From Puniceicoccaceae bacterium (GTDB taxonomy: Bacteria > Verrucomicrobiota > Verrucomicrobiia > Opitutales > Opitutaceae), in contig REEB01000168.1 of NCBI GenBank assembly GCA_007695295.1, positions 1 to 64,000 of the forward strand: a DNA stretch of 64,000 bases, given 5' to 3'. The position numbers and the translations under genes were made by a program. Shown here in pieces: positions 8,648 to 30,414 of this stretch. Position 1 is the stretch's first letter, and each line of letters opens with the position of its first letter. The notes below the pieces were generated by a model. It saw only the letters and a program-made list of their open reading frames with translations. It made no database searches and was not told the DNA's origin.

Positions 8648-9194
8648 GATTTCTCCGGATAGTCTCCTGAGTGGACTCATCGAAAGAGCGTCCGCCCTCG
8701 GCATCAAGCCAACAAATGACCGGCTGGTCGCCTCCATCGCCTCCCAGCGGCTGCTCTGGTTTTCCGGCGACCGGCTCCTTCGGACCTTGGTGATGTCAAC
8801 TGGCCGCAACCCTCCGTCCTGCCGCGAAGGCTCCGAGGGCACCCCCACCGGGCTGCACCGGGCCGCCGACCGGATCGGGCGGGACCAGCCAGCGGGCATG
8901 GTCTTCACAAGCCGCCTCCCCCAAGGAAGATGCTGGCCGGAGTTCCCCTCCAAGGAACAGGCCGGAAACCTCATCACCACCCGCATCATCCGCCTTCGCG
9001 GCCTCGAGCCGGGCCACAATGCCGGCCCCGGGGTCGACACCTACGACCGCTACGTCTACATCCACGGCACCAACCACCCCGATCGGCTCGGCCGGCCCCA
9101 GAGCGCAGGCTGCCTGTTGCTTGGTGACGACGACCTGATCGAGCTCTTCGACCGGCTCGAGGATGGGGCGCTTGTCTGGATCACACCGGACTGA
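8646..9194 (+). CDS. L,D-transpeptidase (YkuD domain), apparently cytoplasmic form
   Basis: A protein of up to 182 residues with an L,D-transpeptidase catalytic domain. The segment NDRLVASIASQRLLWF matches the strand that opens YkuD domains, REGSEGTPTGLHR follows, and the active-site region reads IHGTN...SAGCLLL, equivalent to HGT...S(H/A)GCxR with the nucleophile cysteine near residue 163. Such enzymes make 3-3 cross-links in peptidoglycan or attach lipoproteins. I see no signal peptide or membrane anchor, which is odd for a periplasmic enzyme but seen in short members. The ATG at 8646 shares CATG with the asd start on the other strand, so a later start is possible. Its end overlaps the convergent phosphatase gene by 14 bases. 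Confidence 0.8.
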   Translation: MISPDSLLSGLIERASALGIKPTNDRLVASIASQRLLWFSGDRLLRTLVMSTGRNPPSCREGSEGTPTGLHRAADRIGRDQPAGMVFTSRLPQGRCWPEFPSKEQAGNLITTRIIRLRGLEPGHNAGPGVDTYDRYVYIHGTNHPDRLGRPQSAGCLLLGDDDLIELFDRLEDGALVWITPD

Positions 9195-10017: not shown

Positions 10018-10110
10018 ACCCGCCCGCACCCGCAAGTCAACTGCCGCGCCGCCGGCATTGCCGCTTGCGGCCGGACCTGAGTTCAACAGTGGGACACCCT
10101 CTCCAAGCCC

Positions 10111-10140
10111 GTAATCGTAATCCTGCTCGTAATCGTAATC
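10111..10140. repeat. Inverted-repeat arm, left, copy A
   Basis: Thirty bases whose reverse complement matches 10408-10437 at 28 of 30 positions. On the minus strand it encodes the DYDYEQDYDY tail of the four-helix-bundle protein. The core is GATTACGAGCAGGATTACG. Confidence 0.85.
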
Positions 10141-10397
10141 CCACTTCCCGTTCTTCCGCAGGTCCTGCACCGTGCCCAGATGATTCTTCATGGATGCGGC
10201 TGGCAGAGGTGCTGCGGACTAGGCCCACGAATTGATGCCCTGTCCAACTGATGGTAAACCGCAAGGTTCCTGGGAAATCCTGCGAGCCATTCATCAACCC
10301 AGGAAACCCAGGAAACAAAACCGATGGCATCCCGGCACACATCCAACGTTTCATGACCAAGGGGTGTTTTCGTGGGGTGAAATGCAGTCACCGGCAC
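10141..10397 (-). pseudogene. Remnant of four-helix-bundle (S23/IVP-like) protein gene, copy A
   Basis: The minus strand reads GHETLDVCRDAIGFVSW, then VDEWLAGFPRNLAVYHQLD and RASI, the helix 1 to helix 2 region of the four-helix-bundle family first known from 23S rRNA intervening sequences. The frame then jumps straight to the C-terminal part in another frame (RSTSASRIHEESSG), so the middle of the protein, including the conserved stretch after RAS(T/I)SIPLN, is deleted. The open frame from the GTG at 10397 gives only 69 residues. It is almost certainly non-functional. The family is known; the assignment rests on my recognition of the motif pattern. Confidence 0.6.
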
Positions 10398-10407
10398 TCG
10401 ATCAGCA

Positions 10408-10437
10408 GATTATGATTACGAGCAGGATTACGATTAA
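10408..10437. repeat. Inverted-repeat arm, right, copy A
   Basis: Partner of 10111-10140, 28 of 30 bases matching as an inverted repeat. It lies upstream of the broken reading frame and is not translated as part of it. It is followed by GCGGGACACCC, which also follows the right arm of copy B. Confidence 0.85.
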
Positions 10438-10506
10438 GATGAGCGGCGGGACACCCAATCCAGCAATCCCACCAGCGCGAATCTACGACTATATGCGCCA
10501 TTGGAG

Positions 10507-10740
10507 AAGAACGCACCAAGGCTCGCACCGCTTGGAGAGTCTGGCGGCGCCGCAGTCGTCCCAGCTTGCGGCCGGTGGTTGAACCCCGTGCGGCGGGAAA
10601 ACTGGCACCGGATCACCGAGGCGCTTGGAAACCACCCCGAAGGCGGAGCCGAAGGAGTCGCCGCATCCCGGATGCCGAAACGCCCGCCGGGAAATCCCGG
10701 CGGGCGCTGGCACGTTTCGTCATAGCCTTCCGGCTGAAGG
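10507..10740. other. Non-coding gap downstream of cassette A
   Basis: No gene is seen. It contains the right-hand GCTTGCGGCCGG copy (10564-10575) and, near its end, a strong hairpin that would terminate the minus-strand TonB receptor transcript. Confidence 0.6.
10681..10706 (-). terminator. Intrinsic-terminator-like hairpin after TonB receptor gene
   Basis: A perfect 11-bp stem (CGCCCGCCGGG with its complement) and a 4-base loop lie 35 bases past the receptor stop codon. On the minus strand it is followed by TTTCGG, a weak T tract. Confidence 0.65.
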
Positions 10741-29249: not shown

Positions 29250-29309
29250 GCCGGGTTTCCCGGATCGCCCGTGCCTAAAGTCCTTCCCTCGCACTCCGAT
29301 CCTCTTCCC

Positions 29310-29780
29310 ATGCGCGCTTTTTTCTCGATGGGGCCCGGGCCCGCCCGATCTTCGGCAAGGCTCATCGCCCTGCTGGCATTCGCCTTTCTGGCCGCTCCAT
29401 GGGTTTCCGCCGAAGAGGCCAAACCTCCTCCCGAACCGCCCAGCGAAGGCCGGCTCCTGCCCCGGCCCCAAGGCGGTTTTCTCCATCTCGTGATGGAGGA
29501 CAGCCGTTTTGCGATCAACTTTCTTGACGAAGCCTTTAGACCCGAGCCAGCCGATGTCGATCGGGCCGTCCTCCGGATCCGCCGGGCCGTGACCCGCCCG
29601 GAATCGATCGTCCTGCTCCCCGGCGACGAACCCCACCGGTTGGCCAATCCCCGCTTCATTCGCGCACCCTGGACCTTCCACTTGGTCGTTTTGCTCTTTA
29701 AAGGCGAAGGCGGCGACGCCGTGGAGTCCTACACCCTCAACTGGGTTTCCCCCGCCGGCAGTCCCGACAAAGAGGGCTGA
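29310..29780 (+). CDS. Small secreted protein of unknown function, 3' end altered by cassette B
   Basis: A 156-residue protein with a signal peptide (LIALLAFAFLAAPWVSA) and a compact remainder containing RLLPRPQGGFLHLVMEDSRF and FHLVVLLFKGEGG. No family is recognised. The end reads NWVSPAGSPDKEG and then a TGA that belongs to the shared left terminus (CTGAGTTCAA) of the downstream cassette. A second, untranslated copy of this gene end, reading NWVSPAGSPDEND and a TAG stop, lies beyond the cassette at 30385-30426. This indicates that the cassette arrived within or right beside the 3' end of the gene. A GTG at 29271 would lengthen the protein; the ATG at 29310 is favoured by the signal peptide. 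Confidence 0.65.
   Translation: MRAFFSMGPGPARSSARLIALLAFAFLAAPWVSAEEAKPPPEPPSEGRLLPRPQGGFLHLVMEDSRFAINFLDEAFRPEPADVDRAVLRIRRAVTRPESIVLLPGDEPHRLANPRFIRAPWTFHLVVLLFKGEGGDAVESYTLNWVSPAGSPDKEG
29742..29768 (+). repeat. 27-bp direct repeat, left copy
   Basis: Identical over 27 bases to 30388-30414. It encodes WVSPAGSPD at the end of the upstream gene and begins TGGGTTTCCCCCGCC. It lies 8 bases outside the left terminus of cassette B. Confidence 0.95.
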
Positions 29781-29782
29781 GT

Positions 29783-30216
29783 TCAATCTACTACTCCCTG
29801 TCCAAGCCCGTAATCGTAATCCTGCTCGTAATCGTAATCCCACTTCCCGTTCTTCTGCATGTCCTGACCGTACCCGGATGATTCTTCATCGATGCGGCTG
29901 GCAGAGGAGTTGCGGACAAGGCCCATGAACATCGGGACAATGCGTATTGGTATCGCCTTGAGGGACTCCGCTGAGTCGATTCGCTTCTTCGCGAATTAAC
30001 CACCTCAAGACACGCAGCGCAGAGCCGCGCGCGATAGCGAAGAATCGACAGCGGTCTGCCTCCGTGCACGTGCCTCCGTGCACTATTCAAGGGAATTGAA
30101 ATTGATGCCCAGTCCAACTGATTGTGAACCGCAGGGCTCTTGGGAATTCCTGCGTGCCATTCATCAACCCGGGAAGCAAAACCGATGGCATCCTGGCGCA
30201 CATCCAACTTTTCATG
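29783..30216 (-). pseudogene. Remnant of four-helix-bundle (S23/IVP-like) protein gene, copy B
   Basis: The minus strand reads HEKLDVRQDAIGFA, IPKSPAVHNQLDWASISIPLN, then after a frame break ADRCRFFAIARGSA and AACLEVV, and after further breaks MGLVRNSSASRIDEE and KNGKWDYDYEQDYDYG before a stop. In order these are the recognisable blocks of the roughly 120-residue four-helix-bundle family found in 23S rRNA intervening sequences and elsewhere (the Avd protein of diversity-generating retroelements has a similar fold). A TAA stands in frame just before HEKLDV, and at least two frameshifts follow, so no intact product is expected. Confidence 0.65.
29810..29839. repeat. Inverted-repeat arm, left, copy B
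   Basis: Identical to the left arm of copy A. It pairs with 30268-30297 at 28 of 30 positions. On the minus strand it encodes the acidic aromatic tail of the broken protein. Confidence 0.85.
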
Positions 30217-30267
30217 ATCAAGTGTATTTTAGTGGCGTGAAATGCAATCACCAGCACTCGATCAGTC

Positions 30268-30297
30268 GATTAAGATTACGAGCAGGATTATGATTAC
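30268..30297. repeat. Inverted-repeat arm, right, copy B
   Basis: Partner of 29810-29839. It differs from the right arm of copy A at a few positions, all at the variable third base of the GATTAN units, while the core GATTACGAGCAGGATTA is kept. Confidence 0.85.
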
Positions 30298-30387
30298 GAC
30301 GGGCCGCGGGACACCCAAGCCCGCCATCCCTCCATTGGTAATCAACGTCTTACGCACGCAATTGGAGGTGCTGTTGACCTCAGGAAT

Positions 30388-30414
30388 TGGGTTTCCCCCG
30401 CCGGCAGTCCCGAC
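30388..30414 (+). repeat. 27-bp direct repeat, right copy
   Basis: Identical to 29742-29768 and 4 bases outside the right terminus of cassette B. In the same phase it would read WVSPAGSPD followed by END and a TAG stop (30424-30426), so it looks like a duplicated or original end of the upstream gene. Confidence 0.95.

Follow-up and report, generated by a model that had tools for sequence, protein, structure and literature searches.

The two S23/IVP-related units in the window, the stretch of 64,000 nucleotides analysed here, are probably decayed copies of a small mobile bacterial element whose sole gene encodes the S23/IVP protein, and this is the best explanation overall. The units share a defined architecture, a link between arms and gene that holds across one clade of IVP proteins, dispersal in multiple copies and direct repeats at their ends. 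On the most economical reading of these features, the IVP protein would recognize the arms, with a catalytic partner acting in trans. The features of the two copies are as follows.

10077 to 10500, minus strand (that of the IVP gene): copy 1 of the element (blastn of this stretch against its own genome gave 113 matches, which fall at about 35 loci).
10077: left end of copy 1, CTGAGTTCAACA; the right end is decayed, as judged from copies having both termini.
10110 to 10140, minus strand: downstream (3') arm of copy 1, hexamer array GATTACGATTACGAGCAGGATTACGATTAC.
10408 to 10440, plus strand: upstream (5') arm of copy 1, inverted, GATTATGATTACGAGCAGGATTACGATTAAGA.
10191 to 10409, minus strand: N-terminal remnant of the IVP gene in copy 1, profile positions 5-45 (hmmsearch E 6e-8).
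Closer to the left arm: C-terminal piece of the IVP gene in copy 1, VGLVRSTSASRIHEESSG, from comparison with loci L090 and L164.
10043 to 10074, no strand: left direct repeat of copy 1, 32 nt, 78% identity to 10544-10575.
10544 to 10575, no strand: right direct repeat of copy 1, partner of 10043-10074.
About 29779 to 30384, minus strand (that of the IVP gene): copy 2 of the element.
29809 to 29839, minus strand: downstream arm of copy 2, DYDYEQDYDY in the IVP reading frame.
30268 to 30299, plus strand: upstream arm of copy 2, inverted.
29794 to 30228, minus strand: IVP remnant of copy 2 (hmmsearch E 2e-15), which frameshifts have split into three pieces; the two weaker ones lie at 29889-30086 (E 1.5e-6) and 29786-29995 (E 6e-5), both on the minus strand.
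29742 to 29768, plus strand: left direct repeat of copy 2, which comprises the final codons of gene 29271-29780 (...NWVSPAGSPD).
30388 to 30414, plus strand: right direct repeat of copy 2, the leftover 3' end of that gene (NWVSPAGSPDEND, then a stop), 27/27 identical to the left one.

The sequence-only reading had described copy 1 as an inverted-repeat cassette around a broken four-helix-bundle gene, with a homologous unit 19 kb away, and this description withstood closer analysis in most respects. As an inverted repeat, the arms at 10111-10140 and 10408-10437 agree at 28 of 30 positions. The stretch 10077-10506 has an inverted-repeat score of 25, whereas none of 60 dinucleotide shuffles exceeded 12. 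With a profile derived from intact IVP genes of relatives, the enclosed sequence was identified as a decayed S23/IVP gene in both units, and the remnant of copy 2 was also found independently (contig C88, 29965-30225, E 9e-15). Pfam and NCBIfam scans of the window's reading frames gave nothing significant for the IVP fragments, and scans of the whole genome with TIGR02436 and PF05635 gave no match; this silence is not taken as absence, since the IVP gene is too decayed. The intergenic placement was likewise upheld, the copies lying outside rRNA, one beside an inositol-monophosphatase/TonB-receptor pair and one between a small ORF and ExbD genes. Rfam gave no match within positions 9000 to 31500.

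The typical arm comprises 32 nt and five hexamers, (GATTAN)2-GAGYAN-(GATTAN)2-GA. Across 49 loci, arm lengths cluster at 32-34 nt and GATTA is by far the commonest 5-mer (405), followed by GAGTA (55), the sixth base being free. That one arm doubles as the C-terminus of the protein, as had been proposed, is true of copy 2 and of some relatives. A frame encoding DYDYEQDYDY is open over the left arm in both units, but it is the IVP frame in copy 2 only, where it reads ...SSASRIDEESSGYGQDMQKNGKWDYDYEQDYDYGLGQGVVD up to the stop; in copy 1 it is frame-shifted, and the IVP frame runs through the arm as ...EEREVGLRLRAGLRLRAW, giving GLRLRAGLRLR. The usual form among relatives is a stop in the first hexamer: 25 of the 48 with a downstream array have a stop codon inside it, usually the TAG of the first GATTAG, and a few carry a short array-encoded tail (DQDQD, DQDYD). 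Because the sixth base is free, with A, which gives TAA in that frame, the commonest, protein coding is not, in general, what maintains the array. Arrays of other hexamers also occur. At L169:955-1445 in G076, an IVP gene of the same clade stands between inverted arms of a CGATAC-type hexamer, the downstream one encoding the tail LDTDTDPDGG, and TTACAC, TTTCAC, GACAAA and CTTTTC types were seen at L233, L204, L200 and L246, respectively.

In the window's own genome (G000), the family comprises about 35 loci, recovered by blastn with a 430-bp stretch. A cassette built around a gene aptly describes the window copies and misdescribes most of the others, which are short (about 245-285 bp), lack the gene and consist of CTGAGTTCAACA, a TAATCN array that varies in length, a core, a GATTAN array and TGTTGAACTCAG(G). 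Extra sequence between the arms is present in only a few copies, namely the two of the window and those on contigs 75, 6 and 1, and is IVP-derived where tested. The arms had also been taken for terminal repeats; in this genome they are not outermost, as CTGAGTTCAACA...TGTTGAACTCAG(G) lies further out, with copy-specific direct repeats beyond it. A second hairpin repeat, GTAGCGGGAGCATCCTGCTCCC...GGGGAGCAAGATGCTCCCCCTAC, joins tandem copies of the element in the same genome (L024:362-500, L027, L029, L017 and L018). Searches with blastn for the element's DNA in 56 related genera found no match.

The direct repeats were evaluated in 30 copies by comparing each left flank with its own right flank and with the right flanks of other copies. 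Fourteen of the 30 own pairs score above the 99% level of mismatched pairs (15.3), with scores up to 114, and in 10 of the 30 the repeat abuts both ends within 10 bp, its length being about 27, 28, 30, 52, 66, 90, 108, 123, 147 or 206 bp. The repeat of copy 1 is borderline taken alone (14.5 against 15.3). At copy 2, gene 29271-29780 (...NWVSPAGSPDKEG, then a stop) is now terminated by the TGA of the element's end, and its duplicated last codons remain on the far side of the copy. The repeats of this genome are not only old relics, since the pair at L020 is identical at 52 of 52 positions.

Intact versions of the unit were reached through the arm motif in other genomes of the same order, three of which carry an intact IVP gene between two inverted arms (G239, L144; G182, L178; G076, L164). 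Intact relatives exceed the curated thresholds of the S23/23S_rRNA_IVP family profiles (PF05635, TIGR02436), with 72-79 bits (cut-off 33.8) and 65-74 bits (cut-off 24). When these intact proteins were scanned against 84,980 species genomes, 399 relatives were confirmed, the best 80 of which belong to Verrucomicrobiota, Kiritimatiellota, Lentisphaerota, Planctomycetota, Ignavibacteria, Bacteroidota, Desulfobacterota and SAR324; at least one host is a named isolate, Rhodopirellula rubra CECT 8075 (L215). A search of phages gave no IVP match, and a search of plasmids gave distant cyanobacterial IVPs only. Among individual relatives, L197 (Desulfococcaceae HSG9) has a second arm-IVP unit in tandem in its downstream flank, and at L298 (G124:C1:540130-540528), an inherited locus of a complete genome, the IVP match contains one in-frame TGA.

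Arms accompany this clade of IVP genes across phyla. At the 74 loci with enough flanking sequence, TAATC/GATTA arrays lie upstream in 55, downstream in 49 and on both sides in 48, compared with 0.3% or less per side in shuffles, 1 of 67 for stretches 1 kb away and none of the 20 non-clade IVP genes examined. If any sequence with period 6 is counted, 58 of the 74 have an array on both sides. Shuffles, far flanks and non-clade IVPs replaced a between-locus comparison of arms, which was dropped as a poor control because the motif is common across phyla. In the protein tree, a branch with support 99/95 separates all armed IVPs from 35 armless ones; clade membership, unlike the presence of arms, is partly by design here, as relatives were retrieved by similarity to the clade. 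A search with the arm, which the sequence-only reading had called for, found inverted pairs at dozens of loci, with and without the gene, rather than nowhere else or solely as lone 3' ends of such genes.

The link extends to whole genomes. By a strict pattern, arrays were found in 25 of 26 genomes with IVP loci of the clade, up to 339 per genome, with a reversed-pattern control near zero. The genome with 339 arm arrays (L252, G319, labelled Akkermansia muciniphila) also has two IVP units; its label and its copy number are to be read with caution. Among 273 genomes of the order, arrays occur in 11 of the 12 that have a close IVP (E at most 1e-50) and in 20 of the 261 others (p 7e-11), or, with the IVP cut-off at 1e-30, in 15 of 28 and 16 of 245 (p 3e-9), figures that are inflated by shared ancestry. 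Dispersed palindromes without the gene were found in the genomes of the IVP clade (25 of the 26 tested), the short ones lying near gene ends. Some genomes, such as the window's own, G132 and G270, have arrays and no intact gene, as would be expected after gene loss or if another mobiliser acts. The latter may apply to G270, which is 99% complete and holds recent short copies and no close IVP.

Mobility, which the sequence-only reading had proposed, is well supported by dispersed copies, multi-copy units and direct repeats, also outside the window's own genome, several of the multi-copy cases being metagenome bins. In the metagenome-assembled genome Verrucomicrobia ADurb.Bin070, four IVP units (L196, L205, L211 and L214) share about 99% identity along a stretch reaching from GGCGCATGGCAGTTCTG across the IVP gene, and their four flanks are unrelated; at L211 the other end is CCAACAGAACTGCCATGCGCC and the unit is flanked by the 9-bp repeat CGAAGCCGA. 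Two IVP copies in one Akkermansiaceae genome, 93% identical, agree over 506 bp only. Short copies in G285 and G270, of about 170 bp, are 96-100% identical, with target duplications of 11, 12, 12 and 15 bp read off the flanks, and duplications of 13 bp and about 9 bp were found at L228 and L194. At L210, a 39-bp duplication around an intact arm-IVP-arm unit includes one gene's stop and the following gene's start, and leaves both genes intact. For the short copies of G239, G076 and G182, no long duplication rose above background, and no empty allelic site was obtained in a close relative. A single IVP locus is orthologous in G239, G182, G124, G192 and G145 (Puniceicoccaceae group), where short palindromes are dispersed; since it occupies one orthologous place, the IVP unit is regarded as vertically inherited in these five genomes.

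The AlphaFold model of IVP has four helices (pLDDT 89), and its best matches in the PDB are the S23-family structures 2gsc (TMt 0.86-0.89) and 2rld (TMt 0.86-0.90), both deposited with five chains, followed by Avd and Avd-like chains of a retroelement reverse transcriptase complex (TMt 0.78-0.86). As RNA, the short palindromes fold well (z -2.3 to -6.9), and the arms are predicted to close a stem around the IVP message; the arm stem was seen in the predicted fold of L144. To our knowledge, IVP has no nuclease or polymerase activity, and no catalytic enzyme linked to the element was found. No reverse transcriptase was found in G182 and only a fragment in the window's own genome; the matches in that genome, G239 and G076 are on other contigs than the IVP unit, and none is linked to it. 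A reverse transcriptase as constant partner is unsupported by these genome searches.

An intact unit would consist of an outer, lineage-specific inverted repeat, which is not always recognizable, (TAATCN)5, the IVP gene of about 130 codons, an inverted (GATTAN)5 and the outer repeat again. The element would insert beside genes and duplicate its target, the duplication measuring about 8-15 bp in certain lineages and, in the window's genome, 27-206 bp, and derivatives with both arms and no gene would spread as palindromes in larger numbers. IVP may bind the hexamer arms, either as DNA or as an RNA hairpin, and could join the ends with a cutting or polymerizing enzyme provided in trans, as Avd does with reverse transcriptase. 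In some families, such as Puniceicoccaceae, the gene would now be a fixed single-copy locus, in parallel to the RAYT of REPINs. A broader and more speculative proposal, which we offer only tentatively, is that S23/IVP is the mobility protein of a class of prokaryotic mobile elements with no known transposase. It would read arms of five hexamers, with each subunit of a pentamer perhaps taking one hexamer, and direct insertion with long variable duplications, the rRNA intervening sequences (IVS) being the rRNA-targeted branch of this class.

The units could alternatively be miniature inverted-repeat elements (MITEs) moved in trans by DDE transposases through the outer repeats, with arms and IVP as passengers, which we judge rather unlikely. 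The outer repeats do vary by lineage (CTGAGTTCAACA; GGCGCATGGCAGTTCTG; GCATCTCAGATTTTTC; GAATGGCRCGAACTTAAGG), the last of them also bounds array-free pairs (L333, L335), duplications there span 11-15 bp, and the recent copies of G270 lack a close IVP. Nevertheless, the arms and the IVP clade stay linked across phyla while the outer repeats change, and the duplications of 27-206 bp in the window's genome and of 39 bp at L210 fit a DDE transposase poorly. Long and variable duplications make a single transposase of fixed stagger unlikely as sole cause in the window's own genome, an argument that does not extend to the lineages with 11-15 bp. A search of nine genomes with one end only, GAATGGCRCGAACTTAAGG, gave MITE-sized pairs or single ends, and no inverted pair bracketed a transposase-sized gene. 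GAATGGC..CTTAAGG may resemble IS4/IS231 ends.

A route through RNA, in which the transcript folds on its arms, is bound by IVP and is copied into nicked DNA by a cellular reverse transcriptase, would be a special case of the mobile IVP element, and one that we find doubtful. Widely spaced nicks would explain the spread of duplication lengths, and both the stem around the message and the Avd-like fold point the same way, but no reverse transcriptase accompanies the units, and pairing arms within a locus gives only a moderately better match than pairing them with arms from elsewhere (mean percentile 0.68). Finally, arms and gene could be immobile, the arms being regulatory hairpins or terminators around an inherited IVP gene and the dispersed arrays arising by slippage and duplication. 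The orthologous locus of the five related genomes, other shared sites and the position of short palindromes near gene ends agree with such a scenario, yet the copy-specific direct repeats make it very improbable, as do multi-copy units that are nearly identical, end sharply and have unrelated flanks; against these units it survives only if the contigs are chimeric.

If the units are copies of a mobile IVP element, they bear on the role of S23/IVP and the spread of rRNA IVS, a puzzle of about three decades. The origin and function of S23/IVP were described as unclear in 2016 (PMC4990558), and the domain was still functionally uncharacterized in 2024 (PMC11270868). Because the family is free-standing and multi-copy and has a defined arm motif, recent insertions and a named isolate host, IVP binding and mobilization become directly testable, and the element would also explain a palindrome dispersed through the genomes of PVC and other bacteria. 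The open-access papers searched gave no description of the element or of this palindrome, and a survey of GTAG/CGTC palindromes that includes Opitutus has no GATTA or TAATC strings.

Several known systems share part of this organization. MITEs dependent on DDE transposases are also short and non-coding, with terminal inverted repeats, as found here, and target duplications; those of the element are not of fixed length (27-206 bp in the window's genome, where they are very variable, and 11-15 bp in G270/G285), and its hexamer arms are tied to IVP. The Avd protein of diversity-generating retroelements (PDB 4dwl, 8ub7) has its fold in common with IVP; the reverse transcriptase, template and variable repeat of such retroelements were not found near the units. 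Like REPIN/RAYT systems (PMC3116915, PMC8266576), the element combines one gene with many gene-less palindromes, dispersed and paired, and the gene is frequently a single, vertically maintained copy with the same arms on either side, but RAYT is an HUH nuclease whereas the gene of the element encodes a four-helix bundle, and direct repeats bound many of its copies. The IVS of 23S rRNA, in which an IVP-family ORF has long been suspected as the mobility component of a mobile unit, is exemplified by that of Coxiella, with 428 nt and a 28-bp stem (PMC4990558). It shares with the element the IVP protein, a size of about 430-480 nt and an ORF between two complementary arms, each of about 28-32 nt, which would pair into a stem. 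An IVS differs in residing within rRNA genes, where neither window copy is inserted, and in being excised by RNase III; the element has hexamer arms, gene-less copies, target duplications and a distinct IVP clade. By analogy, the unit resembles an rRNA intervening sequence set free and organized in the manner of REPIN/RAYT.
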